Below are positions 21,674 through 47,127 of a stretch of DNA of 64,000 bases, one piece after another. Every line of letters starts with the position of its first letter. Position 1 is the stretch's first letter. The notes beneath the pieces were generated by a model, which was not told the origin of the DNA, did not search any database, and saw only the letters and a program-made list of their open reading frames with translations. The position numbers and the translations under genes were made by a program. Location: NCBI RefSeq assembly GCF_000376865.1, contig NZ_AQXQ01000007.1, positions 1-64,000 of the forward strand. Direction: 5' to 3'. This DNA comes from Thioalkalivibrio sp. ALJ7. GTDB taxonomy: Bacteria; Pseudomonadota; Gammaproteobacteria; Ectothiorhodospirales; Ectothiorhodospiraceae.

Positions 21674-22891
21674 CTAGTCGTGCAACCAGGGATGGACGGT
21701 CAGCAGCCGTTCGATCCGCTCCCACAGTTCTGCACGGACAGGCCCCGTGCGCTCGGCATCCAGCCGAGAGATAAACAGCGATTCGTACCAGTCCTCCTCC
21801 TCGTCCATGTCCCAATCGACGTCGCGCAGCAGCGCCTGGCCCGAGGCGGGAACCTCGGCAGGCAGGTCGCGACCGCTGAGCATGGCCCAGACGCCGGTCC
21901 AGCAGCGGGCCAGCGCGAGGGGATGGTAGCCACCGCCGCCCAGGACCAGGAGTTTCGGTGTGCCGTCGGCGTGGCGCGGGCTGGTCTCGATCACGTCGTC
22001 GATGCACTGGAGGAAGCACTGAGTGGAGATGCCGAACTTGCCCAGCGGATCGGGCAGCAAGGCATCCGTACCGGCCTGGACGACGATGACGTCCGGCTGC
22101 CAGCGGGTGCGTACGGCATCCCAGATCGTGGTAAACGCGGCTCGGAATTCCGTGTCGTTGGTCTCTTTCGGCAACGGCATGTTGACCGCATTGCCGAGCG
22201 GACCGGTGTCTTCGATCCGCCCGCCCTCGAAGGGATAGCCGTATTCGGTATCCATGTGCAGAGAGACGGTCAGGACGTCGGGGTCGCCGACAAACGCGGC
22301 CTCGACGCCGTCGCCGTGGTGGGCATCAATGTCGAGATACAGCACGCGTTGACCGGCCTGGCGCAAGCGCAGAATCGCCAGCGCCGGGTCATTGAAGTAG
22401 CAGAAACCGCGCGCCTGGTCGGGAGCGGCGTGGTGCATGCCCCCCGCCGGGTTGAAGGCCATCTGACCACCCAACACGACCTCCGCACCCTGGATCGATC
22501 CCCAGGTCGCGGTCGCGGGCGTGGAGTAGAAGCCTGCGAAAAACGGGTTCTCGAAGTTGCCGATGTTGTGGCGGTCGCGGTAGCGCTGGAAGACCTTGCC
22601 CAGGGCCTCGGCACGCTGGATCGCGCTGACGTACTCGCGGGTGTGAAACCATTCGAGCTCGGCCGGCTGGGCCTTGCGCGACACGGCCATCTCCGCCGGT
22701 GTGATCGCGTCATAGGCCTCGATCAGGTCGATGGTCAGCGATACCCGCGGGATGCCCAGGGGGTGATTGTCGCCATAGCTGTGGCCACGATAGCGCGGGG
22801 CATGCAGCAGGGTCGCGTGGCGCCGAGCCGGGCCCCGCTCCAAGCCGTGGGCCTCGGCGTCGGTCTCGATCGCTTCAGGGGTGGCATTCAC
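21674..22891 (-). CDS. Histone-deacetylase-family (AcuC-like) zinc amidohydrolase
   Basis: A 405-aa cytoplasmic enzyme of the arginase/deacetylase fold. Visible are the His pair GGMHHAAPD (HH 153-154), the zinc ligands D189 and H191 in YLDIDAHHGDG and D276 in QAGTDALLPDP, and GGGGYHPLALARCW with the transition-state tyrosine near 330. All catalytic positions are kept, so hydrolysis of an acylated amine, such as acetyl-lysine, is likely. Its start overlaps the stop of cbbO by 4 bp, so it is translated as the third gene of a cbbQ-cbbO operon. That points to Rubisco or its activase as a possible target, which is an inference. Confidence 0.88.
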   Translation of the reverse strand: MNATPEAIETDAEAHGLERGPARRHATLLHAPRYRGHSYGDNHPLGIPRVSLTIDLIEAYDAITPAEMAVSRKAQPAELEWFHTREYVSAIQRAEALGKVFQRYRDRHNIGNFENPFFAGFYSTPATATWGSIQGAEVVLGGQMAFNPAGGMHHAAPDQARGFCYFNDPALAILRLRQAGQRVLYLDIDAHHGDGVEAAFVGDPDVLTVSLHMDTEYGYPFEGGRIEDTGPLGNAVNMPLPKETNDTEFRAAFTTIWDAVRTRWQPDVIVVQAGTDALLPDPLGKFGISTQCFLQCIDDVIETSPRHADGTPKLLVLGGGGYHPLALARCWTGVWAMLSGRDLPAEVPASGQALLRDVDWDMDEEEDWYESLFISRLDAERTGPVRAELWERIERLLTVHPWLHD

Positions 22892-25443
22892 TGGCGCAGC
22901 CTCAAATAGATCTCGGGCAGGCGGCGCGGCAGCTCGTCCACGTGATCGATGATGGTGTAGTGGCCAGGACCAAAGATCGCCGGCAGGTAATCGGAACCGG
23001 ACGGGTCCAGGGTGATGCAGAACGGGTGCACCCCGGCGTCGATCGCCTCCTTCATCGCCATGCGCGTGTCCTCGTGCAGGTAGCGCTGGTCGCCGCCATC
23101 GTCATAGTCGGCCGGGCGGCCGTCGGACAGGATCAGCAGCAAACGGCGCTGGCTGGAGCTGCGCTTGAAGGCCTCCAGTGAGTGGCGGATGCCCGCCCCC
23201 ATGCGCGAGGCGAGGCGCCCGGAGATCCCCGCAATGCGATTGCGGACAGTGTCGTCCAGGCCCTCGTTGAAGTCCTTCAGCCAGTAGTAATTGACCTGGT
23301 CACGCTGCTTGGAGGCGAAGCCAGCAATCGCGCAGGGGTCACCGACCTTGTCGATGGCCTCGATGAACAACATGATCCCCTCGCGCACGCGATCCACGAT
23401 CTTGCCCTCGCCGCTCGGATGCCGCGCCATGATGGACGTGGACATGTCCGCCAGCAGCAGTACCGAGGTGTCACGGTGCTGCACCGCGCGGCGGCGATAA
23501 ATGAAGGCCTTGGGCGAGAGCCCGGCCTTCTTGTCCGCGATGAAATCGATCACCGCCTCGGTATCCAGCTCGTCGCCATCCATCTGCTTGCGCAGTGGAG
23601 CCAGGCGCTGCGGCCGCTGCATCTCCAGGCCACGCTTGAGACGCTTCAGGGTGTCGCGGTTATCAGCGAGGATGCTGGCGGCCAATTCGGCGTTCTCGTC
23701 GTCCAGGACGCGCTCGTAGAGGTTCACCCACTCGGATATGTAACGCTGCTCGCGATAATCCCACTCGGGATATGCGATGCCATCCTTACGCGGCACGTAG
23801 GGTGCAGCGCGCTTGGCGACCTGGGCCGGCTGCGGGATGCCGGTACCGATGCGGCCTCCGGTCCCTGAGGTCTCCTGCTGCGGCGTCTGGATATCCGCGT
23901 CGGGATCCTTTTGCGCCTGCTCCGGAGCCTGCTGCGGCTGCTCCTCCTGCTTCTCGCGCTCGAACTTGTGCTCGTCGTGCGCCTCGTGATCGCGGAAATC
24001 GGCGAGGCTGCCGTCCCGCTTTCTCTGCGGGTAAACCGGCAGCGACTGGTTCAGCGACAGCCCCGGCAGGTAGGCCTCGGCCCGTTCCTCGATGGTGATC
24101 TCGGGGAAGGCCTCGTCCGCGAACAAGGTCTCGCCCACTGCCCAGGCGGTGACCACATCCGCGTCCGGCTCCAGCATCGGGGTCAGGCGCGGGTCCTGTT
24201 CCTCGCCATGCAGGAGCGCCTGGTGGGCCTTAAGCGCAAAGTCGAAATAGACGGCGGCCGCCCCCTCCGGGCGTTCGTGCTGTTCAGCCAGTTCGACCAG
24301 ACGCGGCAGAAAGTTCGGGATACGCGTGGCGATGCACGCGTTCACCCGCAGGTCCTCGGCCAAGTCGAAGAGGACCTGGAAACGGAACATGCGTTCGGCA
24401 TAGTTCGCGAACAGCGGACGCCAGGTGAAACGCGACTTGTCGTCCAGCGGCGGGTGCTCGACCCCGGCGCGTTCAAACAGGCGCTGGACGTCGTCCTGTG
24501 CGTAGGTATCGAAGGCCAGGTGCGCGGCGGCATGCTGAGTCGCCACGATCGCCTCCTCACGCGAGTCCATTACCGCCGGCATGAACAGGCGCCGGCCATC
24601 GGTCTCGAGCATCGGACGGCCTTCGCCCGGCTTCCAGCTGGAATCGGCCAGCGGGATGTCGGCATCCAGCCAGGCCAGCAGCACCAGCCGCAGGAAGCGC
24701 CCGTGCATGCGCGGCCGGAAACCCGGCAGGGCCTCCAGCAACAGCTTCAGGCTCTCGTCACTCTCAAGACGGAAATACGCCTCGCCGCGCGAACGCCCAG
24801 CCTTCAGCAGGTCCGCGCCGCGCCGCGCCCAGGACAACAGGCCCTGGTCACCGACCAGGTTGCGGGCAATCGGGGCCCCCTCAAGGTAGGCATCCAGGGT
24901 CAGGCCGCGCTCGTCGAACAGCGTCTCCGCCGGCTCAATCAGGGCGCGCAGGCCCTCGATGCCACGCCCGCCCGCCAGCTTCTCGAAATCGGTCTCGAAG
25001 TAGGCACGAGCATCCGGCAGGCTGCGCGCGCACCAGCGCAGGCCGATCTCGGCCCACTCGCGCTCACCGTCCTCGCCCCAGGTGGCATAGACCCGGTCGG
25101 CCTGGGCCATGAAGCCTTCCAGAGCGTAGTTGGAGTTGACCCATTCCTTGAAGCGAGCCGCCTGCTCCAACCACAGCTCCACCGTCTGCATGTGCTCGGC
25201 CAGACGCGCGGAGTGACGCATAAAACTCTTGCCGGACTCGCGGTCGTGGAAGAACAGGTCGCGGGCGGTCGCGATCCAGCGCCGCGCGACGGTGGCGCCG
25301 AACGGCCGGATCGCCGGCAAGGCCTCTTTCGTGTCGCGGTGGGCGACGAAGCTGATGTCCTCCAGGTGCTGGAGGATCTCCTCGATCTCGACGAGTTCTT
25401 CGGCCTCGGGCTTCGCGTCGCCGTTGGTCGCGGTATCGTTCAC
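22888..25443 (-). CDS. cbbO: CbbO-type Rubisco-activase subunit with VWA domain
   Basis: An 851-aa adaptor of the CbbQ/CbbO (NorQ/NorD-like) MoxR-AAA class. In known systems CbbO binds Rubisco while the CbbQ hexamer pulls inhibitory sugar phosphates out of the active site. The N-terminal two thirds is helical. A low-complexity linker ([19 protein letters not shown]) lies near 500-520. The C-terminal von Willebrand A domain has the MIDAS motif DMSTS near 664-668 and [16 protein letters not shown] further on. Overlaps cbbQ and the deacetylase-like gene by 4 bp each. No Rubisco gene lies in the window. NorD is the main alternative. Confidence 0.85.
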
Positions 25444-26300
25444 GCGGCTTCGGACTCGGGGAAGTGGGCGTCGAAGATCTCCTCCAGCGCCTGGATCAGC
25501 TCCGGATCATCGGTGATCGGCGCAATCATCGCGGCGCGGCAGGCCACGCGCGGGCTCAGGCCCGCCTGCATCAGCTCGCCCGCGTAGGCCAGCGCGCGGG
25601 TCGAAGTGGCCTCTTCCAGACCGTGGTCCTTCAGTGCGCGTGCCTTGCGCCCGGCGGCGACCAGTTTCTCCACGCGGTCGGCGTCCAGGCCACCGGATTC
25701 CTTGGCCACGATCTCGCGCTCGACGTCTTCCGCCGGGTAGTCGAAGTGGATACCGACGAAGCGCTGCTTGGTGGAGGGCTTCAGGTCCTTCAGCACCGTC
25801 TGGTAACCGGGGTTGTAGGAGATCACCAGCATGAAGTCCTCGTGCGCATCGATGATCTGGGACTTCTTGTCCAGCGGCAGCTGGCGGCGATGGTCCGTCA
25901 GCGGGTGGATGACCACCGTGGTATCGGTGCGCGCCTCGACGATCTCGTCGAGGTAGCAGATCGCGCCCTCCTTCACCGAGCGGGTCAGCGGGCCGTCCTG
26001 CCAGACGGTCTCCTCACCTTCCAGAAGGAAGCGGCCGACCAGGTCGGAACTGGTCAGGTCCTCGTGGCAGGACACGGTCACCAGCGGCTGGCCCAGGACA
26101 TGGGCAATGTGCTCCAGGAAACGGGTCTTGCCGCAACCGGTCGGACCCTTGAGCATCACCGGAAGACGCTTGGAATACGCCGCCCTGAAGATCTCGACCT
26201 CGTCGCCCTGGGGCTTGTAGAACGGGGCATCGCCTGCATCCCCCGGTTTCTCAATGACGTCGCGTTCCACACCGCGGATGCGGTTGATCAGGTTCTTCAT
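25440..26300 (-). CDS. cbbQ: CbbQ-type MoxR AAA+ ATPase
   Basis: A 286-aa AAA+ ATPase from the ATG at 26300 (CGGAGA upstream). Walker A is GPTGCGKT (52-59), Walker [13 protein letters not shown] near 112, sensor 1 SYNPGY, and the pre-sensor insert lies around [12 protein letters not shown]. The family forms hexamers with CbbO and remodels inhibited Rubisco. [25 protein letters not shown] is very like the CbbQ/NorQ consensus. First gene of a coupled cbbQ-cbbO-deacetylase operon and divergent from an unknown small gene. Assignment to CbbQ over NorQ rests on the overall sulfur-autotroph context and the absence of nitric oxide reductase genes nearby. Confidence 0.87.
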
Positions 26301-26413
26301 GGGATCTCCGATGCCGGCCACTCGGGCCAGGGCTGGTGTATGCGCGGGTGCGGCGTTAGGCTGCGCCGGTTCGAGCGGACTGTGCTTCTGGGTCCGTCGT
26401 GTTCCCGCAGGCT

Positions 26414-26543: not shown

Positions 26544-26861
26544 ATGAAACTTGTCAAGCTCGTCAAGCTGAACAACCTGCAGTACAACCCGAACCGCGAC
26601 CCGGATTTCTACCGCCGCCCGATCAATGAGGAATTCCGGGTGCAGGCCGTGCTGAACGGATCCGGCACCGCCCAGTGCACCTTCTCGGTGGAAGGCGAGA
26701 CCCTATGCGAGGGCAGCGTGTCCCTACCGGGCACCTTCGACTGCAAGTTCAGCTACGACACCGCCGGCACTCGCATTGGCGACCTGGTGATCGAGGGCAA
26801 CGGCGAGACCTTCCACGAGAAGGTCCGTATCGACGTCCTGGAGCACGCCTGGATCGGCTGA
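26544..26861 (+). CDS. Conserved-looking small protein of unknown function, divergent from cbbQ
   Basis: A 105-aa acidic cytoplasmic protein (MKLVKLVKLNNLQYNPNRD at the start) with a good ribosome binding site (AGAGGA). Three cysteines occur in AQCTF, TLCEG and FDCKF. The alternation of hydrophobic and polar residues (TFSVEGETLCEGSVSLPG, RIGDLVIEGNG) suggests a beta-sandwich. No signal peptide or membrane segment. I do not recognise a family. Its position, sharing an intergenic region with the Rubisco-activase operon, suggests but does not show a link. A terminator hairpin follows at 26911. Confidence 0.7.
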   Translation: MKLVKLVKLNNLQYNPNRDPDFYRRPINEEFRVQAVLNGSGTAQCTFSVEGETLCEGSVSLPGTFDCKFSYDTAGTRIGDLVIEGNGETFHEKVRIDVLEHAWIG

Positions 26862-27245: not shown

Positions 27246-27272
27246 GAAAGCCCCGCGAGGGCGGGGCTTTCG
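27246..27272 (-). terminator. Intrinsic terminator of the proVWX operon
   Basis: GAAAGCCCCGC and GCGGGGCTTTC pair around a GAGG loop, 25 bp past the proX stop on the minus strand, followed by TTCTTCGTT. It closes the operon that starts around 32.2 kb. Confidence 0.75.
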
Positions 27273-27296: not shown

Positions 27297-28166
27297 TCAG
27301 TCGATCACGCCGGTCACCCAGTACTGCACGTATTGCGGGTGATCTTCGATGAAGCGGTCCACGGCCTCGGCGTAGGAGTTCTCCTGGGCGTAGAACATCG
27401 CCTCTTCCAGCACGTCCAGGTTCAGTTGCATGCGCGAGATCATCATCGCCACGTCGTGGTATTCCTCGGCGAAGCCCTCGCGGGCCAGAGCATGGATACG
27501 CTCGAAGCCACCCAAGGCCTCTTCCGGATCTTCCAGATAGCGCAGGTCATAGGCCCCGAACTTCCAGTGCGGGCTCCAGCCGGTAACCACGATCCATTCG
27601 TCGCGACGGATCGCGCGATCCAGGGCAGAGGTCATGCCGGCGCCGGAGGAGATCTGCAGGTCATAGCCGTCCAGGCCGTACGTCTCGATCGCATCTTCCG
27701 ACAGACGCGTCAGGCCCGCACCCGGGTCAATGCCGGTAATGCGGCCATCCAGTTTATCCCGCACCGAATCTTTCTTGAGGTCCTCGATCGAACCCAGCTC
27801 GTCTTCGGGCACGTAGTTCGGGACGACCCAGCCGAGGCGGGCGTCACCGTACAAGGGCCCCAGATTGACGATGTCCTGGCCCACGCGCTCCATATAATCC
27901 TCGTGCGTACCCGGCAACCAGGCCATCAGCATCAGGTCGATGTCGCCAGCGGCCAGACCCTGGTACTGCGGAGCAATGTCGGTTTGAATCAGCTCGACCG
28001 AGTATCCCATTTCGTCCTCGATCACACGTTCGGCCAGCTTGGTCACGAACTCGGCGTCGGACCACGCGGTCCAGCCAATCTGGATGTCGTCGGCCTGAAC
28101 GGTCGACACAGTCATCGAGGCGGCCAGCACGCCACCCAACAGGGTTGAGGTCAGTGTCTTGTTCAT
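27297..28166 (-). CDS. proX: Glycine betaine/choline-type ABC transporter substrate-binding protein
   Basis: A 289-aa periplasmic protein of the OpuAC family. Start chosen at the ATG at 28166 with AAGGAG eight bases upstream. A signal peptide ends near VQA. Aromatic residues that form the quaternary-ammonium cage are present in IGWTAWSDAEF, LMLMAWLPGTHEDYM and WIVVTGWSPHWKFG. Follows proW by about 50 bp. The likely ligand is glycine betaine or a relative such as proline betaine or dimethylsulfoniopropionate; sequence alone cannot distinguish them. The operon joins this importer to a lipoate-ligase-like gene. Confidence 0.88.
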   Translation of the reverse strand: MNKTLTSTLLGGVLAASMTVSTVQADDIQIGWTAWSDAEFVTKLAERVIEDEMGYSVELIQTDIAPQYQGLAAGDIDLMLMAWLPGTHEDYMERVGQDIVNLGPLYGDARLGWVVPNYVPEDELGSIEDLKKDSVRDKLDGRITGIDPGAGLTRLSEDAIETYGLDGYDLQISSGAGMTSALDRAIRRDEWIVVTGWSPHWKFGAYDLRYLEDPEEALGGFERIHALAREGFAEEYHDVAMMISRMQLNLDVLEEAMFYAQENSYAEAVDRFIEDHPQYVQYWVTGVID

Positions 28167-28219
28167 CGTGCTACTCCTTGCTTCGAGTGAAATCGATGGC
28201 GCGACGCCCAAACCGGAGG

Positions 28220-29062
28220 TCAATGACTCCCCTTGCGCCGCCGCCCCACGCTCTGAGTAATGCGGTCGAGCAGGATGGCGAGGATCACGACCCCCAGGCC
28301 GCCTTCGAAGCCCAGCCCGACATCAAGCCGCTGGATACCGGTGAGCACGGTGTTGCCCAGCCCGCCGGCCCCAATCATCGACGCGATCACCACCATGGAA
28401 AGTGCCAGCATGATGGTCTGGTTGATGCCGGCCATGATGGACGGCATTGCCAGAGGTAGTTGAATCTTGGTCAGAAGCTGGCGTCGATTGCAACCGAAGG
28501 CCAGCCCGGCCTCGATCTGCTCGCGGTTCACCTGACGGATACCCAGATTGGTCAGACGCACGACCGGCGGCATACAGAAGACCACCGTGGCAATGGCGCC
28601 CGGGACGGTGCCCAGACCAAAGAAGATCGCCGCCGGGATCAGGTAGACGAAAGGCGGCATGGTCTGCATCAGATCAAGCACCGGGCGGATCGAGGCTTCG
28701 ACCCAGTCACTGCGCGCCATCGCAACCCCAACCGGCATGCCGATCGCCAGGGCCACCGCAGTGGCGGCCAGCACCAGCGAGAGTGTCTTGATGGTGGGTT
28801 CCCAAAGGTCCATGCCGAGAATCAGACCGAGCGCCACGATCGCGAAGATCCCGAAGCGCCAGCTCACCCGCCACCAGCTAAGCCCCACCAGGACCAGCAC
28901 CAACAACCAGGCGGGAATCGCCAGCAACGCGCCCTCGAAAGAGTTGGTCAACAGACCCAGGAACCAGGCGATGCCGTCCAGGCCTGGCTCGAGGTTGTCG
29001 AGGATCCAGTCGACCGCCGTCTCGATCCAGTCGCCCACGGGGATATTGATGCGTCCTTCCAT
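28220..29062 (-). CDS. proW: Glycine betaine-type ABC transporter permease
   Basis: A 280-aa inner-membrane permease. About six to seven membrane helices are visible: two N-terminal (IAWFLGLLTNSFEGALLAIP onward) and the conserved permease core with the EAA-like loop EQIEAGLAFGCNRRQLLTKIQLPLAMPSIMAGINQ, which contacts the ATPase. The segment IGAGGLGNTVLTGIQRLDVG near the end is typical of ProW/OpuAB. Starts 1 bp after the proV stop codon, so the two are translationally linked. Confidence 0.92.
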   Translation of the reverse strand: MEGRINIPVGDWIETAVDWILDNLEPGLDGIAWFLGLLTNSFEGALLAIPAWLLVLVLVGLSWWRVSWRFGIFAIVALGLILGMDLWEPTIKTLSLVLAATAVALAIGMPVGVAMARSDWVEASIRPVLDLMQTMPPFVYLIPAAIFFGLGTVPGAIATVVFCMPPVVRLTNLGIRQVNREQIEAGLAFGCNRRQLLTKIQLPLAMPSIMAGINQTIMLALSMVVIASMIGAGGLGNTVLTGIQRLDVGLGFEGGLGVVILAILLDRITQSVGRRRKGSH

Positions 29063-29063
29063 G

Positions 29064-30269
29064 TCAGCGATCTCCGTTCATGGCGGCCGCGGTCCGACTG
29101 CGATCCAGCGCTTCTACCAGTCGCGGCAACGTCACCAGACCACGGAAGCGGCCCTCAGAATCCACCACCGGGATGGATACCGGGCTTCGCGCAGCACGGG
29201 ATGGAAGCTCCGCCAGAGCCATGTCCTCACCGACCGGCTCCAAGGTCACGGCCACCTCGCTGGCCGGGCGATCCACTGTCAGTTCGTTCAGACGCTTGGC
29301 CTGGACAATAGACCGGAAACGTCCATCGGCATTGAGGATCACGGCCTCGCTGCCCGGGACATGGGCGATGCGATTGCGTGCTTCGCCGGCGGTGGTGTCG
29401 GCATCCAGCACCGGGATATTCTCGCTATCCATGATGTCGCCGGCTTGGAACACCTGGGTGATGTCCACGCCGTGGAAGAACGAGCGGACGTACTCGTTGG
29501 CCGGGGCGGTGATAATCTCCTTCGGCATACCGACCTGTACGACCTCGCCACCTTGCATGATGGCAATGCGGTCGCCGATACGGATGGCCTCGTCGAGGTC
29601 ATGCGAGATAAACACCACGGTCCGGCGATGCTCGCGCTGCAGATCCAGGAGCCGATCCTGCATATCCGTGCGTATCAGCGGGTCCAGCGCCGAGAAGGCC
29701 TCGTCCATCAGCATGATGGAGGGATCGGTCGCCAGCGCCCGGGCGAGACCCACACGCTGCTGCATCCCGCCCGACAGCTCGTCGGGATAGCTGCGGGCGT
29801 GCGCCTTCAGGCCCACCTGGTCCAGCGCCTCCAACGCCCGCTCGCGGCGCCGGGCACGGCCGACCCCGGCGATTTCCAACCCCAGTGCCGCATTGTCGAT
29901 CACGGTCTTGTGCGGCATCAAAGCGAAGGACTGGAAGACCATTGCCAGATCCTCGCTGCGTAACCGGATCAGCTCGCGCTGGCTCATCCGCGTAACGTCG
30001 CGCCCGCGTACCTCCACGGTACCCGCAGTGGGCTCGATCAAACGGTTAAGCAGCCGCACCAGGGTCGACTTGCCGGAACCGGACAGCCCCATCACCACGA
30101 AGATCTCGCCCTCGGCGATATCAAGATCGCAGGCCTTCACGCCCACCGTATTGCCGGTGCGCTCGAAGATGGTGTCCTTGTCCAGCCCGTCCTCGATCAG
30201 CCTCAGGCCTTCCTGCGGGTTCGGCCCGAACACCTTGTACAACTCGCGCACCCGGATGATGGGTTCCAT
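29064..30269 (-). CDS. proV: Glycine betaine-type ABC transporter ATPase with CBS domains
   Basis: A 401-aa ATPase from the ATG at 30269 (GGGAGAG upstream). Walker A is GLSGSGKST, the signature LSGGMQQRVGLARAL, Walker B IMLMDEAFSALDPL and the switch His SHDLDEA. The C-terminal 120 residues hold a CBS pair (VLDADTTAGEARNRIAHVPG and SIPVVDSEGRFRGLVTL), which in OpuA sense ionic strength and gate transport with osmolarity. First gene of proV-proW-proX, itself about 57 bp after a receiver-like gene on the same strand. Confidence 0.93.
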   Translation of the reverse strand: MEPIIRVRELYKVFGPNPQEGLRLIEDGLDKDTIFERTGNTVGVKACDLDIAEGEIFVVMGLSGSGKSTLVRLLNRLIEPTAGTVEVRGRDVTRMSQRELIRLRSEDLAMVFQSFALMPHKTVIDNAALGLEIAGVGRARRRERALEALDQVGLKAHARSYPDELSGGMQQRVGLARALATDPSIMLMDEAFSALDPLIRTDMQDRLLDLQREHRRTVVFISHDLDEAIRIGDRIAIMQGGEVVQVGMPKEIITAPANEYVRSFFHGVDITQVFQAGDIMDSENIPVLDADTTAGEARNRIAHVPGSEAVILNADGRFRSIVQAKRLNELTVDRPASEVAVTLEPVGEDMALAELPSRAARSPVSIPVVDSEGRFRGLVTLPRLVEALDRSRTAAAMNGDR

Positions 30270-30326
30270 TCCACGCTCTCCCTGCAATAACGCACCGGGT
30301 TGCCAAACCCCGGCCCGGGCGGCCGA

Positions 30327-30710
30327 TTACCAGTCGTACTGGCGGATGAACTCGGGAAGCTTGTCGACCATTTCATCCCGCCCGAAAAAGCGGTCGGCAC
30401 GCGCCAGGCGCATTTCGTCCTGGATATCCTGGTCGCCACCGAAACAGAATACCGGAAGGTTGATCTGGTATTCCATGCGCAACATCCGAATGACATCCAG
30501 GGGATCGAAGGCCTCGATCTCGTCCAGATCCAGCAACAGGAAGCGATACAGCAAGATCTCGTTCCAGGGCCCGAGGTCCTCGAGATCGGTCACTTGGTGC
30601 AAGTGCCAATCTGGCGTCAGTGGAGACTGGAGCCGCGCGGTCATGTCCGCATCTTGCGTCATCAGGATGATGCGTTTCTCCAGGCGGCGCGCGATGGTCG
30701 GTTCAGACAT
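30327..30710 (-). CDS. Degenerate response-regulator receiver-like protein
   Basis: A 127-aa single-domain protein. The pattern of strands and helices follows the CheY fold: RIILMTQDADMTARL, then FLLLDLDEIEAFDPLDVIRMLR, where the first Asp of DLDE matches the phosphoacceptor, then LPVFCFGGDQD where the usual Thr/Ser is missing, and ADRFFGRDEMVDKLPEFI where the conserved Lys is replaced by Gly/Arg. Phosphorylation-dependent switching is therefore doubtful. It sits between a lipoate-ligase-like gene and proV on one strand, with gaps of 44 and 57 bp, suggesting co-expression. It may act as a protein-binding module. Assignment is by fold pattern only. Confidence 0.6.
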   Translation of the reverse strand: MSEPTIARRLEKRIILMTQDADMTARLQSPLTPDWHLHQVTDLEDLGPWNEILLYRFLLLDLDEIEAFDPLDVIRMLRMEYQINLPVFCFGGDQDIQDEMRLARADRFFGRDEMVDKLPEFIRQYDW

Positions 30711-30754
30711 AAAGGATCTCCGGGGTTTCGAAAAACGGACAGGTGCGGACGCTA

Positions 30755-31798
30755 TCAGGCCGCCGCGATTCCGCGGTAGAGCCCGTCGATACGGGCACTG
30801 ATCTCGTCCACTACCTGCGGTTCCAGTTGGCCATTCAAGCGCGACCGAACGCGCAGGCGCTCCGGTGACTCGCCGACCAGGCGCGCCTCGAGGATCGCGG
30901 TGGTCTCAGGGTCCTCGCACCAGACGCGAGCAATATGCGAGCCCTCTACATGAAGGCGCAGACGGCCACAGGGCCCTCGCGTCTCGAACACGTGATTGTC
31001 GCGATTCACCCGAATACCGTCGCGCACGGCCGGGGATCCCTGCCCGTCCGCCAGGTCCGCAAGTTCCTCACGCCCCACCGCCAACCACTGTTCGATGGTG
31101 GCCGAATCCGGTGACAGATTCCGAGCCGGCACGCCAAAACGGCGTTCCAGGACCGTGCGTAGCGCACTTTCGATCTGAACCGGTTCGGGCACCTGCGGGC
31201 ACTGGCGCGCACAGTCCGTCATGCCCGTCTCCAGCGCCGGGCGCAGCCAATCTCGATACCCCTCGCTGGGGGCATTCACACAGGCGAGAAAACGCTCGAC
31301 CGGAAAATGGCGCAGGAAGCTCGCACCAAACACACAGCCTTCATTGAGCGTGGCCGCGCCCGTGCCCATGATCTTGCGCCCCTGAACCCAGACATCCTGC
31401 CCCCGCGCCTCCACACCCTGGATTCCTAGCTCGCGCAGCACATCCATCGCAATCCCCAAGCCCATCGCGAACAGGTGACGGTGGCCCTGAGCAAGGACAT
31501 GGCGCGGCTGAATCAGGAAGAAACAGGCCTGGTCGGCATCCACCCATACGGAACCGCCCCCCAGGGGGCGGCGCACCACCGGAACACCCTGGGCGGCACA
31601 GGCCGCCAGGTCGAGGTCGGCTTCCGCATCCTGGCTGGCACCGATCGAGATATGCGCCTCACGGGCATGCGCCCAGAGCAGACGCGGGGGGGCATCCGGC
31701 GAGGTAGTACCCGCCAGACCTGCGTAGAGCGCGTGGAGTTCTCCTGCGGAGCGGGCCCCGGCGTCGATCCACTCCGGGGTAACCGTCGATGCGACCAA
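30755..31798 (-). CDS. Second lipoate-protein ligase-like protein
   Basis: A 347-aa member of the biotin/lipoyl transferase fold. The lipoyl-AMP loop RRPLGGGSVW lies at 76-85 and the conserved lysine in GRKIMGTGAA at 142. A C-terminal domain of about 100 residues (VRDGIRVNRDNHVFETRGPC onward) resembles the accessory domain of LplA. It is clearly distinct from the sLpl(AB) gene at 37465-38556. It could be a second ligase, an octanoyl transferase or an amidotransferase moving lipoyl groups between LbpA proteins. It starts 3 bp after an unknown gene and precedes the receiver-like gene and proVWX, so it belongs to the transporter operon. Confidence 0.8.
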   Translation of the reverse strand: MVASTVTPEWIDAGARSAGELHALYAGLAGTTSPDAPPRLLWAHAREAHISIGASQDAEADLDLAACAAQGVPVVRRPLGGGSVWVDADQACFFLIQPRHVLAQGHRHLFAMGLGIAMDVLRELGIQGVEARGQDVWVQGRKIMGTGAATLNEGCVFGASFLRHFPVERFLACVNAPSEGYRDWLRPALETGMTDCARQCPQVPEPVQIESALRTVLERRFGVPARNLSPDSATIEQWLAVGREELADLADGQGSPAVRDGIRVNRDNHVFETRGPCGRLRLHVEGSHIARVWCEDPETTAILEARLVGESPERLRVRSRLNGQLEPQVVDEISARIDGLYRGIAAA

Positions 31799-31801
31799 AT
31801 T

Positions 31802-32230
31802 TCAGCCCTCGGTCTGATCCTGACCGGAACCGGCGTCACCGCCCTTGTCGTCCGCGCCGGGCTGGTAGAAGTAACGGAAGTAGAAGTCACTACGCGAGAG
31901 ATCCTCGTACAGCTTGGCGCGTTCCTCAACCCCGCTACGCATGATCTCGACCATCGCCATGGCCTGCTCGCCATCAATGATGTGGATCCCCCCGGTCAAC
32001 TCCTGATCGGTATCAAGGAAATGAGCGGCCAACTCCTCGGGCTCCTGGATGTACACCAGGAAAGACTTGCATTCGGGGTCCTCAAGGTCCAACGGCTGCA
32101 TCACGATCTTGCCAAGCCACGCCAGACGCGCGACTTGGTTGAACTGGTGGATATCGAGCTTCTTGCCCTTCTTGTACTTGTTAAGTTCGTTGCGGATCTC
32201 GCCAATATTGGCGATCTTCATCGATTTCAT
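31802..32230 (-). CDS. Unknown protein at the head of the lipoate-ligase/betaine-transporter operon
   Basis: A 142-aa soluble, charged protein (an internal ATG at 32221 would give 139 aa). It starts with a basic segment (KIANIGEIRNELNKYKKGKKLDIHQFNQVARLAWLG) and continues with LEDPECKSFLVYIQEPEELAAHFLDTDQELTGGIHIIDGEQAMAM; the last 20 residues are Gly/Asp-rich and likely disordered. One cysteine only. I do not recognise the family. It lies 3 bp before the ligase-like gene, so a functional link with lipoyl transfer is likely. A terminator separates it from the exported protein gene upstream. Confidence 0.7.
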   Translation of the reverse strand: MKSMKIANIGEIRNELNKYKKGKKLDIHQFNQVARLAWLGKIVMQPLDLEDPECKSFLVYIQEPEELAAHFLDTDQELTGGIHIIDGEQAMAMVEIMRSGVEERAKLYEDLSRSDFYFRYFYQPGADDKGGDAGSGQDQTEG

Positions 32231-32293
32231 GAGTGTGCATCCTGCCGCGGGTGTTGCGGGAGCATAAACAACTCCGCACCCCGGTCGTAAAAA

Positions 32294-32313
32294 AACCCCG
32301 GCGGACCGGGGTT
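32294..32313 (-). terminator. Intrinsic terminator after the exported unknown protein
   Basis: AACCCCGG and CCGGGGTT form an 8-bp stem with a CGGA loop. On the minus strand it is followed by a run of T (32288-32293). It divides the exported-protein gene from the 32230-27297 operon. Confidence 0.85.
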
Positions 32314-32383: not shown

Positions 32384-33340
32384 TTACCAGTCGAATCCGT
32401 CGTCTTCCTCTTCTTCAAAGCCCCCGACTTCCCTCAGGGTCTCTTCCAGTGCCCCGGGAGAACTGCGCAGACGCATGAAGCTGTGATCCCCCAGCATGCG
32501 CAGGTCAGGGAAGTGCACTGCCTTGCGGAACCGCATGTGCAACGCCTCGATCTCGCCGCCTCGGACCAGGATCTCGATCGGAACCGTTGCGGTATGACGA
32601 AACTCGCCAACATCGACAATCCCCAGCTGGTGAAGGTCCGCCGAATCCTGCGCCGCCCCGTCCTCTTCTCTGACCGCCACACCAATCACCGTGACGTCCT
32701 GGCCGGGAATATCCACCCGGTAAACCTCGCTAACTCCGGCCACCCGACTACTCAGGTTGCGGTCCAGCTCGTCGAGTGCGGCCTGCCGCGACCCGTGGCT
32801 ACCCAACTCGTACGGCGCGTCAAAGCGCTCCATACCGAAGGTATAACGGTATCGGTTAAGGTCACGCTCGCTGAGGCCCTCCTCGGACCCGAATTCACGC
32901 TCAGAACCCAGCGTGTTCGCCAAACGATTCGTCACGTTTTCGACCGAGCCGTCCAGCCGATAGGCATGACGGAAATACTCCGGGTTGTTATAGCTCACCT
33001 GCAGGCCGCCATCGACCGCCGTCACGGACACACGGATCGGGGCGATGTAGCCGCCGCGTTCCTCGGAGCCGGCCACCGACAGCAGATCATCGTGGGTCAC
33101 CACGACCACATGCCGGTCGTCACTGACCGGGTATTCGCCCAGGAACCGGAAGTCGGCCCCCTCCAGACGCTCCCGCACACTGGCGGCCTCGGCGGAGACA
33201 TCCGTCCCCGATTCGGTGTAGGCCAGCACGAATGGCCGATACGTATCGGCCGCCACGGTCTGGCTGGCCGCGAACAGTGCAACCACCGCGACCATTCCGG
33301 CCGCACGCACATAGCCGCGCAAAGCATGAATTGCTCGCAT
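32384..33340 (-). CDS. Exported protein of unknown function in the sulfur cluster
   Basis: A 318-aa protein from the ATG at 33340 (AAAGGAGGA upstream). The signal peptide ends near TVAA (residue 31). The mature part is soluble, with DFRFLGEYPVSDDRHVVVVTHDDLL, GYIAPIRVSVTAVDGGLQVSYNNPEYFRHAYRLDG and a very acidic C-terminus (GGFEEEEDDGFDW). I suspect a duplicated DUF302-like fold but cannot confirm it. It lies between the FadL-type gene and the lipoate-ligase operon on the same strand, with its own terminator. Periplasmic location is inferred from the signal peptide. Confidence 0.65.
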   Translation of the reverse strand: MRAIHALRGYVRAAGMVAVVALFAASQTVAADTYRPFVLAYTESGTDVSAEAASVRERLEGADFRFLGEYPVSDDRHVVVVTHDDLLSVAGSEERGGYIAPIRVSVTAVDGGLQVSYNNPEYFRHAYRLDGSVENVTNRLANTLGSEREFGSEEGLSERDLNRYRYTFGMERFDAPYELGSHGSRQAALDELDRNLSSRVAGVSEVYRVDIPGQDVTVIGVAVREEDGAAQDSADLHQLGIVDVGEFRHTATVPIEILVRGGEIEALHMRFRKAVHFPDLRMLGDHSFMRLRSSPGALEETLREVGGFEEEEDDGFDW

Positions 33341-33545
33341 GGCATCCTCCTTTGAATTCTCTGGTAAATCCGAGCGAAATACTCGACAGAAAGAAGGGCC
33401 CGGGACGCACACCCAGTACGTCACGGACCTCGGCATCACCCGCCATCCCTGGCAGACCCAGCCTTCCCCTCAAGGCCGGCGCGCCCTCCCGGGCACACGA
33501 CACCGAAGCCCCGCGGCGGTCAGGCGACCGCCCCGGACCACCCCA

Positions 33546-34844
33546 TCAGAAGCGGTACGCGTACCCGATCTCGAGCTCGTACTGACGCATCTCGATCTCA
33601 ACATCTTGGCCGGGATCGAAAGCATTCGGGCCAGATACGCTCTGCCTCGGTGCATACATGGCAGCGAAGTTGATCTCGTGCTGCCCGAACTCCCGGGTGA
33701 ATCCGGCTGTAAAGTGATCAGTCATCACGGCAGGCGCCAAGATATTCAGTGTCACTTCATTCGAACTGATCGGATTCTCGCCGCGGTTATAGCCCACTCT
33801 CCAAACCCAGCCATTACCGCCGTCAATCTGAGCGCCGAACTTGAAGATATTCACATCATCCCAGCCGAAGCCTGCACCGCCATCGGCACCTAGCATGCCG
33901 GCCGTATTCGAATTAGAGACCGCGTCAATCTCCGAATACCGAATCTTCTGGTAATCGGCCGACAATGTGACGTTCGGTGTGACATCCAAAGAAAAGCCGA
34001 GTCCGTAGGTAGACGGGATATCAAATTCCCCACCATTGGCGAATAACCCTGCGTACTCGTCGAAGTCTCCAGCACGGATCTTGGAGCGATAACTCGCCCC
34101 GACACGCGCGCCCTCTGCGAGCTCCGCTTGAAATCCGATCTGCGCGCCATAACCCCAGCTGGAATCCGTACGTCCACTGCTAAGGTTTTCAGGATCGTCG
34201 CTCATCCCTCCAAAGGTACTAATGCCCTCAGCGCTGAAACGCTGGTAGCTAATGATCGGGCTAAACCCAACGCTGACCCTTCCATCCGCAAATTTTTGCG
34301 CGTAAGTCGGGATGATGGCGATCTGCTCAAGGTTAATCCCCGCCGAACCATCACAGAATGGACCCGTGTTGGATGGAGTATTCGGGTCCATCTGGCAAAC
34401 CTCATTCGAGAACGCCGGATAATCCGTATTCATGCCTCCGTTCCCAAGCAGGGCGATACCCCATGAACGGTTCTCATCAATCTGCTGGACAAACCCTAGC
34501 GAAGGGACAAAGAAGTCTTCGCTACCGCTGTCGACTTTCCCCGGTGCCAGGCCAAACGTACCCGGCTGGCCGGAAGGCATCCCCGAAACCTCGTACGAAC
34601 GCTCGGGGCGGAAATAGGCGACAGATGCGTCAAATCGAGTTTCCATGCCGGCGATGCCAGCGGGGTTGATGCCCGGTGCGTAGGCGTCCTGGGAGATTGC
34701 CATACCGACGCCTCCCATACCCTTTGCCTTGGTGCCATAGCCGTGCGCGAAATAGCCGTTGGTGGCTTGCGCGACGCCAGCGGAACCCATCGCCAGGCCG
34801 ACCGCGGCCGTCACCAGGCTGCGGCGAATGATGCGTGCTTCCAT
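33546..34844 (-). CDS. FadL/OmpP1/TodX-family outer-membrane channel
   Basis: A 432-aa outer-membrane beta-barrel protein. After a signal peptide ending VAQA, the mature N-terminus TNGYFAHGYGTKAKGMGGVGMA is the FadL hatch motif; amphipathic strands follow and the last strand ends in Phe (ELEIGYAYRF), as needed for barrel insertion. Family members carry hydrophobic compounds (fatty acids, aromatics) sideways through the barrel wall. Inside a sulfur-oxidation and lipoyl-assembly cluster, a hydrophobic sulfur species or a fatty-acid precursor of lipoate are candidate substrates; this is inference. The gene has about 280 bp of upstream DNA beyond the LipS terminator. Confidence 0.9.
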   Translation of the reverse strand: MEARIIRRSLVTAAVGLAMGSAGVAQATNGYFAHGYGTKAKGMGGVGMAISQDAYAPGINPAGIAGMETRFDASVAYFRPERSYEVSGMPSGQPGTFGLAPGKVDSGSEDFFVPSLGFVQQIDENRSWGIALLGNGGMNTDYPAFSNEVCQMDPNTPSNTGPFCDGSAGINLEQIAIIPTYAQKFADGRVSVGFSPIISYQRFSAEGISTFGGMSDDPENLSSGRTDSSWGYGAQIGFQAELAEGARVGASYRSKIRAGDFDEYAGLFANGGEFDIPSTYGLGFSLDVTPNVTLSADYQKIRYSEIDAVSNSNTAGMLGADGGAGFGWDDVNIFKFGAQIDGGNGWVWRVGYNRGENPISSNEVTLNILAPAVMTDHFTAGFTREFGQHEINFAAMYAPRQSVSGPNAFDPGQDVEIEMRQYELEIGYAYRF

Positions 34845-35128: not shown

Positions 35129-36301
35129 TCAGGCTGTCTTCTCGTCTTCCGCCTCGTCGGCGTCGAAGTCGAAGGTGCCGACATCCTCTCCGGCCATTTG
35201 CCGTTTGACGAACCCGACATCGGTCGAGTTGAGTGCAAACGGGAAGGACAGGATGTCCGTCGGACTGGAATCGCCGTAGGGCCGGTTGCAAGCCGAGACC
35301 TCCTCGTCCGACTTGCCGGGACAACCGGAGGTCTGGAACGGCTTGCCAGAAGCAATCAGCTCCTCGACTTCCGACTGCGGCAGACCGAAGTCCACCACCT
35401 GGCCATCCGCGTTGAACTTCATGTCGTCGATACGCCCCCCGGCGTAGTCGATCACGAAGCGGCCCAGCTGCACGCGGCGCCACTGGTCCCGCGGGACCGG
35501 GTTCCAGTCTTCCATCAGCGAGCCTTCTTCCGGGAAGAAGGCGAACATGTGGTTGTGGCCGCCCAGATCACGAATGCGCTGGCAGACCTGCAGGATCTCT
35601 TCCTCGGTCTCGCCCATGCCGCAGATCAGGTGCGCGCCAAACTTCTCGGGACCGAAGATCTCGGCGGCCCACTCGATGGACTGCCAGTACTTGTCCCAGC
35701 TATGCGGACTTTCGACCGCCTTGCCACGGGTGCGCTCGAAGATCTCCGGCGTCACCGCATCCAGCGCGACGGTGAAGATATCGGCACCCTTGTCCCGCAG
35801 GAGCTGGAGGTCTTCGTAGCTCATGGTGGTCGGGTTGGACAGGATCGACACCGGGATATGGTTGACCTCGGCGACCCAGCGCTCCAGAAGCTCGACGGTG
35901 TCGGCATCGGAATTCGGGTGCGTGATCATGGAGATGCACATGCGCTCGAACTGGCCGGCGTCGGCGTGGTTCTTCACGCGCTCGATCACCTCGTCGTACT
36001 TGGCGGTGGGCCAATCCACACGGATGAAATTGCGGTCGGCGTAGTCACGCGATTCCTCGCGATGACGCGCCAGCCCGCAGTAGGAGCAGTTCGCACGGCA
36101 GCCTTCCGGATACGTGACCAGGAGGTTCAGGCAGTGCGTGCAGGAGGTGCGATGCATGGTGCCCGGGACCAGACCCAGCGTGATCGCGGCGGCGGTGGAC
36201 ATCTGCACGTACTCCGGCGAACGCATGTCCGGGGTCTTGATGTGATAGTCCGGCCGATAAAAATTGATTGGCGCGACCATCTCTTCTGCGCTTGCACTCA
36301 T
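35129..36301 (-). CDS. lipS2: Radical SAM lipoyl-assembly protein of LipS2 type
   Basis: A 390-aa radical SAM protein. Start at the ATG at 36301, with GGAGGAATTTTC upstream. The SAM cluster motif is C68-x3-C72-x2-C75 (CRANCSYC), preceded by C54-x2-C57 (CTHC), which may ligate an auxiliary cluster. A paired gene lies at 38549-39730, with ligase and FAD protein between them. In archaea and sHdr bacteria, LipS1 and LipS2 together insert two sulfur atoms into octanoyl chains, replacing LipA. The number S1 or S2 is assigned from gene order as I remember it and could be reversed. It is the last gene of the lipoyl-assembly operon. Confidence 0.8.
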   Translation of the reverse strand: MSASAEEMVAPINFYRPDYHIKTPDMRSPEYVQMSTAAAITLGLVPGTMHRTSCTHCLNLLVTYPEGCRANCSYCGLARHREESRDYADRNFIRVDWPTAKYDEVIERVKNHADAGQFERMCISMITHPNSDADTVELLERWVAEVNHIPVSILSNPTTMSYEDLQLLRDKGADIFTVALDAVTPEIFERTRGKAVESPHSWDKYWQSIEWAAEIFGPEKFGAHLICGMGETEEEILQVCQRIRDLGGHNHMFAFFPEEGSLMEDWNPVPRDQWRRVQLGRFVIDYAGGRIDDMKFNADGQVVDFGLPQSEVEELIASGKPFQTSGCPGKSDEEVSACNRPYGDSSPTDILSFPFALNSTDVGFVKRQMAGEDVGTFDFDADEAEDEKTA

Positions 36302-36356
36302 GAAAATTCCTCCAGCGTTGTCTCGGGGATGCCGGGCATCCGTCGACCGTGGCCGC

Positions 36357-37445
36357 CTACGCGGCCCGGTCACCATCGTTGAAATACTCGGAAAATGCAA
36401 TCCATCCACGGCGCTGAGTGGCATCTTCCTGCGCCCGCGGGGTTCGCCAGTGTTCGTTGAGAAAGGCGCGGCGCTCGCAGGCCCGTTCCAGGGCCGGGCC
36501 ATACTGGTCGCGCATCTCTTCGTCGTAGTCGGGAAAGGCCTCGTCGTCGCCCTCCAGATGAGCGATCGCGGCCTCACCTGCCGCCTCGCCCGAAACAACC
36601 GCCGCGGCGATACCCGCACCGGTGATGGGATGCGTCAGGCCCGCCGCATCGCCCACAAACAGAACGTCGTCGGCCACCAGGGAATCCCTCAAACCGCCCA
36701 CCGGGATCGCCCCCCCGGTACGGTAGCGGATCTCCTCGCCCAGCAGTCCCTGCTCCACCAACTGGGCGTGCAGCGATTCCAGGGGAGCCTTCAGGTCGCC
36801 CGCAATGTCCTTGTCCGCACCTAGCCCCAGATTGGCCCACTCCCCCTTGGGAAACAGCCAAGCGTAGCCGCCTGGGTAGTCGTCCGACAACCAGACGTCG
36901 GTCGCGGTGTAGGACTTTTTCAGGGGCACGGTGTATTGCCGCGTCTGGACCACCGGCAGCGCCGGCAGGCCCAGCGACTCAGCCACCGGGGAATGAGGGC
37001 CATCCGCCGCGATCAACACGCGATACGCCACCTCGTGTTCACGGCCCGCATGCTTCACGCAGGCCACGTGCTTTTTAGCATCAACGGACACCAGCGGAGT
37101 AGAGGTGACCAGTTGCGCCCCGTTGGCCTCGGCGGCGCGAATGATGGCACGGTCAAACTCGCCGCGGTCGACCATCAAACCCGGGAAATCCGAATGCTCT
37201 ACCGCCCCGGACGGCAGGAAGCTCTGCATCGAATCGATACGTTGCAGCAAGACGCCGTCGGGCCGTGCATAGGCGCCCATCGGATTGGGGATGAATTCGG
37301 CACACTGTACTGGCTCGCCGAAGGCCTTGTTGCGCTCGACCGCGAGCACAGAGAGGCCCGCCTCCGCGCAGACCCGCGCAGCGGATGCGCCGCCCGGGCC
37401 CAGCCCCACAACCAGCACGTCGACAGAAGCGGGCAGCATCAGCAA
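36357..37445 (-). CDS. FAD-dependent oxidoreductase of the geranylgeranyl-reductase family (lipoyl operon)
   Basis: A 362-aa flavoprotein. The N-terminal Rossmann motif is VLVVGLGPGGASAARVCAEAG (a nearby ATG gives 360 aa). GADKDIAGDL and FVGDAAGLTHPITGAGIAAAV near 270-290 are the second FAD motif of the geranylgeranyl-reductase group. It lies between the sLpl(AB)-type gene and the second LipS-type gene. A similar flavoprotein, called LipT in descriptions I recall of sHdr-linked lipoyl assembly, is usually found there, perhaps supplying electrons to the radical SAM pair. The electron-donor role is inference. Confidence 0.82.
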   Translation of the reverse strand: MLMLPASVDVLVVGLGPGGASAARVCAEAGLSVLAVERNKAFGEPVQCAEFIPNPMGAYARPDGVLLQRIDSMQSFLPSGAVEHSDFPGLMVDRGEFDRAIIRAAEANGAQLVTSTPLVSVDAKKHVACVKHAGREHEVAYRVLIAADGPHSPVAESLGLPALPVVQTRQYTVPLKKSYTATDVWLSDDYPGGYAWLFPKGEWANLGLGADKDIAGDLKAPLESLHAQLVEQGLLGEEIRYRTGGAIPVGGLRDSLVADDVLFVGDAAGLTHPITGAGIAAAVVSGEAAGEAAIAHLEGDDEAFPDYDEEMRDQYGPALERACERRAFLNEHWRTPRAQEDATQRRGWIAFSEYFNDGDRAA

Positions 37446-37464
37446 AGGTTCCTGTCACGAATCA

Positions 37465-39730: not shown

Positions 39731-39783
39731 GGGCGTTCTCCGGGGTCGGCAGATTTCTTGAAGGTTTTACTCGGGTATTACCG

Positions 39784-39821
39784 AAAAAAAGGGGCCGCCC
39801 ACCTCGACAAGGCGGCGGCCC
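39784..39821 (-). terminator. Strong intrinsic terminator after the second lbpA
   Basis: GGGCCGCC (39792-39799) pairs with GGCGGCCC (39814-39821), and on the minus strand the stem is followed by a run of seven T (39784-39790). It ends the lbpA-dsrE-lbpA segment and separates carrier genes from the lipoyl-assembly operon. Confidence 0.9.
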
Positions 39822-39836
39822 TTGCAGCAACGGGTA

Positions 39837-40274
39837 TCAGCAGCCGCCGAAACCGTCCGCTTCCATCTTCGCTTCGAAGCCCGACATGGCATCGGAACCG
39901 GCCTTCAGATCGCCGGCTTCGCCGTCCCAGTCTTCCGGCTTCAGCTTGATCAGCCAGCCTTCGCCGTAGGGATCTTCATTGATCAGGCCCGGATTGGCCG
40001 CGACCTTGTCGTTGGTCTCGGTGACTTCACCGGTGACCGGGGTCTTCGCCGGACCCACCCACTTGCCGGATTCGACGGTGGTGCAGGACTTGTCCTTCTT
40101 GACCGTCTTGCCCACCTTCTTCGGGGTGTAGGACACGATCGTGCCCGCCAGCGAACAAGCGTAGGAAGTCAGGCCAACCGTCGCGGTACCGTCGCTTTCC
40201 TTGCGCACCCAAACGTTGTTTTCAACGTTGTACATCAGATCTTCCGGAATATCACAACCCCGAACTGCACCCAT
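39837..40274 (-). CDS. lbpA2: Lipoate-binding protein LbpA (GcvH-like), second copy
   Basis: A 145-aa GcvH-like carrier. The hybrid-motif lysine is K71 in TVESGKWVGP, the LbpA form of the lipoyl site; glycine-cleavage GcvH normally reads ESVKAASD. Cysteines at 7, 40 and 64 plus a C-terminal Cys (GFGGC) are unusual for GcvH. It has a strong GGAGGA ribosome binding site. In sHdr organisms the lipoyl arm works with the heterodisulfide-reductase-like complex in sulfite formation. It differs clearly from the first copy at 40726, with only dsrE between them, so the two may have different partners. The C-terminus continues past the fold in a flexible Gly/Asp-rich tail. Confidence 0.9.
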   Translation of the reverse strand: MGAVRGCDIPEDLMYNVENNVWVRKESDGTATVGLTSYACSLAGTIVSYTPKKVGKTVKKDKSCTTVESGKWVGPAKTPVTGEVTETNDKVAANPGLINEDPYGEGWLIKLKPEDWDGEAGDLKAGSDAMSGFEAKMEADGFGGC

Positions 40275-40309
40275 GTCTTCCTCCAGGAATAATCAAATAA
40301 AGCGGGAAA

Positions 40310-40717: not shown

Positions 40718-40725
40718 AGAATCGC

Positions 40726-41172: not shown

Positions 41173-41213
41173 GTTTCGCCTCGTTCCCGGGACCGAGCGG
41201 ACCCTTGCCTCCA

Positions 41214-41238
41214 CAAAAAACGGGCGCCTCGCGCCCGT
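41214..41238 (-). terminator. Intrinsic terminator between hdrB2 and lbpA1
   Basis: ACGGGCGC and GCGCCCGT pair around a CTC loop and are followed on the minus strand by six T. It lies 45 bp past the end of hdrB2 (stop at 41283) and 42 bp before the lbpA1 start, leaving very little room for a promoter. Confidence 0.8.
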
Positions 41239-47111: not shown

Positions 47112-47127
47112 AAGCGCTTGAAACGCC

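Follow-up and report, generated by a model that had tools for sequence, protein, structure and literature searches.

The window analysed here is a stretch of 64,000 nucleotides from Thioalkalivibrio sp. ALJ7 (contig NZ_AQXQ01000007.1), in which the shdr-lbpA-lip genes are followed on the same strand by a run of six genes, unk142-lig2-rec127-proV-proW-proX, and further on by genes for an AAA+ ATPase, a protein with a von Willebrand factor A (VWA) domain and a class-I histone deacetylase (HDAC)-type amidohydrolase. Our comparisons show that the set of genes to which unk142, lig2 and rec127 belong is conserved and, across many families of gamma- and betaproteobacteria, co-occurs with the LipS1/S2 lipoate pathway, and that the betaine-type importer encoded by proV-proW-proX is limited to one branch of the genus and is not the conserved partner of lig2. 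In the reading that we favour, for which confidence and doubt are about equally balanced, unk142-lig2-rec127 is a short unit of an accessory module of sHdr-LbpA sulfur oxidation, the importer would be a late insertion for osmoprotection, and lig2, the HDAC and the AAA+/VWA pair would act on LbpA or sHdr.

The module was followed through rec127 (30327..30710, minus strand), which encodes a pseudo-receiver domain and served as its marker. A rec127 profile scan over one genome per species gave 66 named loci, hosted by Thioalkalivibrio, Ectothiorhodospira, an Acidihalobacter metagenome-assembled genome (MAG), a Competibacteraceae MAG and many beta- and gammaproteobacterial MAGs. On the same strand upstream of rec127, unk142 was present in 62 of the 66 loci and lig2 in 50. 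Genes of the lip, lbp or hdr kind stood there in 45, or in 41 when only the 47 loci with 5 kb or more of upstream sequence are counted. Near rec127 we found the small gene beta107 in 37, the HDAC gene in 24 and the AAA+ and VWA genes in 22 each; these counts are bounded by contig ends and a 10-kb flank, and with the two peptide patterns used diverged homologues can be missed. Where the nearest relatives are free of the importer, a convergent beta107 comes after rec127, and then the AAA+, 851-amino-acid VWA and HDAC genes.

Co-occurrence was counted over a class sample of 369 genomes, treated as one sample because its size and handles agree, which contained rec127 in 21 genomes, a strong lipS2 in 27, the 851-amino-acid VWA type in 17, lig2 in 17 and the HDAC in 22. 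The lipS2 gene was present in 20 of the 21 rec127 genomes and in every genome with lig2 (17/17), the long VWA protein (17/17) or the HDAC (22/22), over 10 to 13 families, with Fisher p values, in which related genomes are counted as independent, of 3e-26 for lipS2 with rec127 and 6e-31 for lipS2 with HDAC. The bit-score cut-offs were of our own choosing: above 580 bits for lipS2, which 27 of the 31 genomes with a match pass, the best of the others scoring 46 bits; above 1000 bits for the long VWA protein (17 genomes, next 301); and at least 255 bits for lig2 (17 genomes, next 247). Among lig2-like matches at 216-247 bits, those in G033, G079 and G035 were put in a third LplA-like family by the tree and the rest were assigned by score. 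For the HDAC an E value of 1e-100 was fixed beforehand and weaker matches are unlisted; the lowest kept, in G212, scores 351 bits and the next above it 511.

All 17 lig2 matches in the class sample lie no more than 350 bp from rec127. Of the 20 genomes that share lipS2 and rec127, 11 have the two genes 15 kb or less apart, the other nine failing this partly at contig ends. The later genes of the module can stand elsewhere and still co-occur: the AAA+/VWA pair is apart from rec127 in G280, G166 and G252, the HDAC is apart from it in G340, G280 and G166 and sits on a short contig in G192 and G285, and G035 has the HDAC without rec127. In G172, beta107, the small gene hel140 and the AAA+, VWA and HDAC genes come directly after lipS2, with unk142-lig2-rec127 on another contig, and in G212, which lacks rec127, an HDAC gene (L182 10868-13055; Pfam HDAC 1e-61) stands directly before lipS1, with a slight overlap, in a run lipS1-lipS2-slpl-dsrE-shdr.

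An earlier, sequence-only reading of this DNA had described the six genes as one minus-strand operon, and the layout it gave, with gaps of 3, 44, 57, 1 and 53 bp, was verified, as were its identities for the importer. ProV (29064..30269, minus strand) is the ATPase and matches PRK10070 at 7e-134, ProW (28220..29062, minus) is the permease (BPD_transp_1 1.6e-29; TIGR03416 1e-101, under its cut-off) and ProX (27297..28166, minus) is the betaine-type binding protein (Pfam OpuAC 7e-65); all three importer subunits are present. The same reading had named a lack of conservation of this linkage in relatives as grounds for refutation, and the linkage of importer and ligase proved to be restricted. At this locus ProX occurs in 9 of the 30 genus genomes (the window, G002, G004, G009, G011, G019, G022, G023 and G026, the far side of the importer not being seen in G011 and G019) and proV in 8 of the 66 named loci, and proVWX is found in none of the 45 loci L093-L137, which are termed outside the core set and yet include T. 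denitrificans, T. sulfidiphilus, a bin named T. paradoxus and another Thioalkalivibrio. The genes that stay with rec127 are unk142, lig2 and the lip, lbp and hdr genes. On the genus tree, drawn without L029 (incomplete) and L026 (no rec127 match), the importer label needs two changes, and ProX genes 57-58% identical lie on other contigs in G007 and G013. What stands is that the sHdr region has another ligase linked to it, catalytically plausible and in one apparent operon with an importer; a functional pairing of importer and ligase finds no support.

It had also been proposed that the importer takes up a sulfonium compound such as dimethylsulfoniopropionate, the sulfur of which would feed the sHdr pathway. 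In the importer branch the six genes can indeed form one transcription unit, with no internal terminator found, but nothing else speaks for this idea, since ProX aligns with the betaine-binding OpuAC (2b4l, 1e-46), including tryptophans that are presumably its binding cage positions. Sulfonium uptake was rejected as the main explanation, since only a single branch of the genus shows the linkage, and we regard it as very improbable. The alignment of ProX with a betaine-binding protein makes osmolyte uptake the simplest reading, and the importer would most simply be an osmolyte system put into an existing unit. A three-gene betaine/proline ABC transporter of T. versutus D301 has been named for betaine uptake (PMC9062515); the locus tags given there were not matched to this locus. 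Two Thioalkalivibrio bins (L040 and L043) carry 7.7 and 6.4 kb of other DNA between rec127 and the AAA+ gene, the joint occupied by proVWX in the window, and this joint is thus open to insertion. In some genomes the interval between rec127 and the AAA+ gene (992 bp long in L046, 1418 bp in L050) contains short repeats, visible as repeated peptides in all-frame translations.

The importer might also be tied to sulfur oxidation through its transcription. The terminator that had been read 3' of proX is present as a hairpin with an 11-bp stem (27246..27272, approximate bounds, minus strand; generic scan and stem script), and no terminator, which together with a promoter between ligase and proV had been named as grounds for refutation, was found in the gap from lig2 to rec127 or in that from rec127 to proV. 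A second terminator-like hairpin lies between hyp351 and unk142 (32289..32313, read by eye, minus strand); its 8-bp stem is shared by 14 of 24 loci, the nearest ones, four others having a different stem and six none, in a comparison that lists 24 of the 25 loci given and counts perfect stems only, with no shuffle control. On the 3' side of this stem, aligned near relatives share a conserved TTTATGCTCC block, a GCAGGA stretch and then the start codon. A generic scan of 26300-33600 gave no promoter, sigma-70-type included (1.5 expected), and four terminators (4.6 expected); it omits the hairpin before unk142, the evidence for which is that its stem is perfect and conserved. Because that scan gave no promoter, and terminators not above chance, the transcription signals as a whole rest on conservation. 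A promoter at unk142 that raises betaine uptake during sulfur oxidation would agree with the spacing between rec127 and proV, which is 51 to 58 bp and terminator-free in the eight importer-bearing loci measured. However, the unit starts after its own terminator, so that any coupling to the transcription of shdr would be hypothetical, and the scan offers no sigma-70-type promoter for it; such co-regulation seems to us possible but doubtful. We prefer to see the importer as a late insertion that would borrow the promoter of the unk142 unit and serve osmoprotection.

The lig2 gene (30755..31798, minus strand) encodes a divergent LplA-type (lipoyl/octanoyl) transferase that matches Pfam LplA-B_cat (PF21948) at 6.1e-22, with 79 bits against a cut-off of 27. 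The two motifs reported as intact are found at residues 76-82 (RRPLGGG) and 140-147 (GRKIMGTG), and all 15 aligned proteins share R77, G80-82, D135 and the catalytic K142, which suggests that the chemistry has been retained. As had been claimed, lig2 is a second ligase-like gene, distinct from the sLpl(AB) of the same region (37465..38709, minus strand; LplA-B_cat 1e-49; named from the published gene order), the known type of LbpA ligase, with which it shares 24% identity. In a tree of 15 lig2, 11 sLpl and 8 third-family rows, taken from many more available, lig2 forms a separate clade (support 100/99) with the third LplA-like family beside it, and the sLpl group is supported at 100/98; the placement of the E. 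coli row, which has a long branch, is unsure. Membership of lig2 in sLpl(AB) is ruled out by these separate clades. The third family (L052-L058, L060, L070), found in Thioalkalivibrio and relatives, is sister to lig2 and has an intact ND motif in its 8 aligned rows; its gene in G033 adjoins what looks by eye like a fumarate hydratase gene. No match of lig2 to the LplB accessory domain (PF10437) was seen at E 0.01, and its last 100 residues could be a divergent version.

Before the Lys loop, an ND (Asn-Asp) motif is present in the rows for sLpl, for the third family and for E. coli LplA; its Asn is absent from all 15 lig2 rows of the motif alignment and from 14 of the 15 lig2 rows of the tree set (it is kept in L163). 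Because of this loss lig2 may be unable to activate lipoate, which counts against our reading and opens the way to another, in which lig2 is inactive as a ligase and senses lipoate or lipoyl-LbpA, working with rec127 to signal the carrier's state. The wider retention of rec127, which also occurs without lig2, would suit such a sensor. The invariance of Lys142, Asp135, Arg77 and the GGG argues against an inactive protein, and G012 has lig2 with no rec127 in the stretch seen; on balance we think the sensor unlikely, and we keep to a transferase role for lig2.

The small proteins are less easily placed. The label of degenerate receiver given to rec127 from the sequence fits, because its profile matches the solved receiver domain 3lte (E 7e-4; 4qpj 0.0019), and on this profile evidence we take the protein to be a diverged receiver domain, one that has no Pfam match up to E 10. 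D20 and D61 are invariant in the rec127 alignment, and in the 3lte alignment, read by eye, no Thr/Ser or Lys was seen at the usual places of the phosphorylation pocket. The unk142 gene (31802..32230, minus strand), which opens the transcription unit, encodes a conserved protein of unknown function (alignment of 18 rows; AlphaFold2 (AF2) model with a mean predicted local distance difference test score (pLDDT) of 84). It matches no Pfam family at cut-off, gives only weak profile matches to solved chains (best 0.009) and yielded nothing clear in fold searches by Foldseek (best E 0.29) or VIA-align (best Z 4.4). The product of beta107 (26544..26858, plus strand; convergent with rec127), known from an alignment and an AF2 model with a mean pLDDT of 93.7, is a predicted Ig-like beta-sandwich with SoxZ-type chains among many fold matches; because these tie with many unrelated Ig-like folds, kinship with SoxZ was rejected and only the term Ig-like is used. 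Outside core Thioalkalivibrio a second small protein, hel140, is encoded between beta107 and the AAA+ gene (L048 7638-8036, L050 11571-11969, L051 13824-14210), and G212 has a weak relative (29%) between hdrB2 and lbpA2 (L182 1050-1328).

Beyond beta107, an AAA+ protein of the MoxR/NorQ/CbbQ type (25440..26321, minus strand; AAA_5 2e-34, CbbQ_C 4e-29) adjoins an 851-amino-acid NorD-like protein with a C-terminal VWA domain (22888..25443, minus strand), the arrangement of the NorQ/CbbQ-NorD/CbbO pairs. The last 300 positions of the VWA protein match NorD (9qhd, 4e-51), and the protein carries an invariant DxSTS, which we take to be a MIDAS-like (metal ion-dependent adhesion site) motif; its long N-terminal part has no significant Pfam match. 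The possibility has to be weighed that the module serves some other process, for example as a Rubisco-activase-like AAA+/VWA system, its co-occurrence with shdr merely marking autotrophic sulfur oxidisers. The CbbQ_C domain invites this view, as do relatives of the pair reported as Rubisco activases (PMC4660213, PMC8718961) and the retention of three module genes in G033, which has no lipS2. However, a further CbbQ_C gene with a CbbO/NorD-like partner lies elsewhere in the same genome (C12:88741 and C12:86395), which makes the window pair a distinct copy, and a plain CbbQO role for it was considered and set aside. Furthermore, members of the wider VWA family are present in 188 of the 369 class genomes, whereas the full-length 851-amino-acid type occurs in 17, all of them rec127 genomes (17/17), and in G212 the HDAC stands beside lipS1. 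Service to another process is thus quite unlikely in our estimate, and an action on sHdr or LbpA remains our preferred role for the pair.

The HDAC-type amidohydrolase (21674..22891, minus strand; Pfam 7e-70) has the Aquifex aeolicus histone deacetylase-like protein HDLP (1c3r, E 1.4e-83) as its closest solved relative and shares its catalytic motifs. Residues H153/H154, D189/H191, D276 and Y322, to which we assign the active-site His-His, Asp-His, Asp and Tyr roles, are invariant in 14 of 14 sequences. A class-I enzyme of this kind would be chemically suited to cutting an acyl-lysine amide.

Besides the lost Asn of lig2, a number of observations weigh against a single module in the service of sHdr-LbpA. 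The terminator before unk142 sets its unit apart from the lip genes, and the co-occurrence p values ignore relatedness. Many betaproteobacterial loci are without AAA+, VWA and HDAC genes within 10 kb, and in G010 (L044) neither an AAA+ nor a VWA gene was seen over the 8.5 kb that follow rec127. Of the 66 named loci, 16 lack lig2 upstream of rec127; the gene was not seen beside unk142 and rec127 in the Ectothiorhodospira loci, nor in the f53 genomes G236 and G340, and G012 has it with neither rec127 nor unk142 found in a stretch of 19.5 kb (L045). The HDAC occurs without lig2 in G035, G212, G236, G252 and G340, and the G212 enzyme is only 36% identical to that of the window. Seven lipS2 genomes are without rec127. 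Conversely, G033 keeps unk142, rec127 and beta107 (L161 9230-10340) and is without lipS2, the module HDAC and an adjacent lig2; its trio may be a remnant, or the three genes may serve alone. The G033 trio seems to stand at the syntenic place, beside ilv/pssA genes that, from N-terminal sequences compared by eye, resemble those of the window.

The neighbouring cluster is a known one. Its order in the window, tusA-shdrC1B1A-hyp-C2B2-lbpA1-dsrE-lbpA2-lipS1-slpl-lipT-lipS2 (35129..47487, minus strand; hyp open reading frame at 42953-44014, start uncertain), was assigned from domains and from the order in PMC6382920 and PMC10332631, and it agrees with the shdr-lbpA-lipS1-slpl(AB)-lipT-lipS2(-lipY) cluster as set out in the relevant sections of Cao 2018 (PMC6067878) and Tanabe 2023 (PMC10332631), with the new module following. 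The FadL-type gene between the two (32384..34844 together with hyp351, minus strand; Toluene_X 6e-16) is probably the lipY of the literature, described there as a putative fatty acid transporter; a DUF302 assignment of hyp351 (E 0.033) was not accepted. The cluster up to lipY was already known, and we regard the accessory module as a new addition to it. The published clusters, in the same sections (PMC6067878, PMC10332631), have one ligase each, with lipX and lipY as further genes, and the window adds lig2. The term histone deacetylase does not appear in the main text of PMC6067878, PMC10332631 or PMC6382920, the figures or supplements of which may draw these genes; no search of the first two for the AAA+/VWA pair was made. 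Literature searches for Thioalkalivibrio with histone deacetylase returned unrelated work only, those for sHdr with MoxR or von Willebrand returned Rubisco-activase work only, and we found no description of the module in the literature searched, figures and supplements lying outside that search. Farther along, at 52543-52960 on the minus strand, are four consecutive tRNA genes.

Parallels to known systems suggest how the module might work. Like the NorQ/NorD and CbbQ/CbbO pairs (PMC13036017, PMC9976466, PMC4660213), the window has a CbbQ_C-type AAA+ protein next to a NorD-matching protein; unlike them, its VWA protein has the long N-terminal part and the pair co-occurs with shdr and lip genes. 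NorQD has been described as using ATP-driven remodelling of nitric oxide reductase to enable metal insertion (PMC13036017). We propose by analogy that the window pair would remodel or activate sHdr or LbpA, with rec127 and unk142 as possible adaptors. To our knowledge, the SirTM/GcvH-L operons are without sHdr. These operons (PMC4518038, PMC8556138) likewise combine a second LplA, a GcvH-like carrier and a carrier-editing enzyme, but the editors reported for them are a sirtuin ADP-ribosyl transferase together with a macrodomain protein, whereas the candidate editor in the window is the HDAC. Enzymatic removal of lipoyl groups is known in bacteria from the lipoamidase CobB, an NAD+-dependent sirtuin reported to act on PDH, KDH and GCV (PMC5596343), whereas the window case would involve a Zn-type HDAC acting on LbpA.

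We tentatively suggest that lipoylation of LbpA is reversible, written by sLpl(AB)/LipS1/LipS2 and lig2, erased by a dedicated class-I HDAC, and accompanied by a dedicated NorQD-like AAA+/VWA pair that services sHdr-LbpA, a scheme that could be right although we doubt it more than we trust it. The proteins sLpl(AB), LipS1 and LipS2 put octanoate or lipoate on LbpA and assemble the cofactor (PMC6067878, PMC10332631), and a heterologous test left LbpA in the mercapto-octanoyl form (PMC10332631), which indicates that unfinished groups can arise on the carrier. The HDAC might then hydrolyse the acyl-lysine of LbpA, taking off groups that are damaged or still unfinished (octanoyl, mercapto-octanoyl) and leaving a carrier that can be rewritten. 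As a second, divergent acyl or lipoyl transferase on LbpA beside sLpl(AB), for example in lipoate salvage or exchange, lig2 could re-attach a group after this removal and so keep the carrier functional.

The sHdr-LbpA-LipS system is an important and incompletely understood route of sulfur oxidation, and the module raises for it both the reversibility of LbpA lipoylation and the need for an sHdr activase. HDLP is an active protein deacetylase whose natural substrate is not named in the relevant part of PMC8556138; if the scheme proposed here is true, bacterial class-I HDACs of the HDLP kind would gain a natural substrate.

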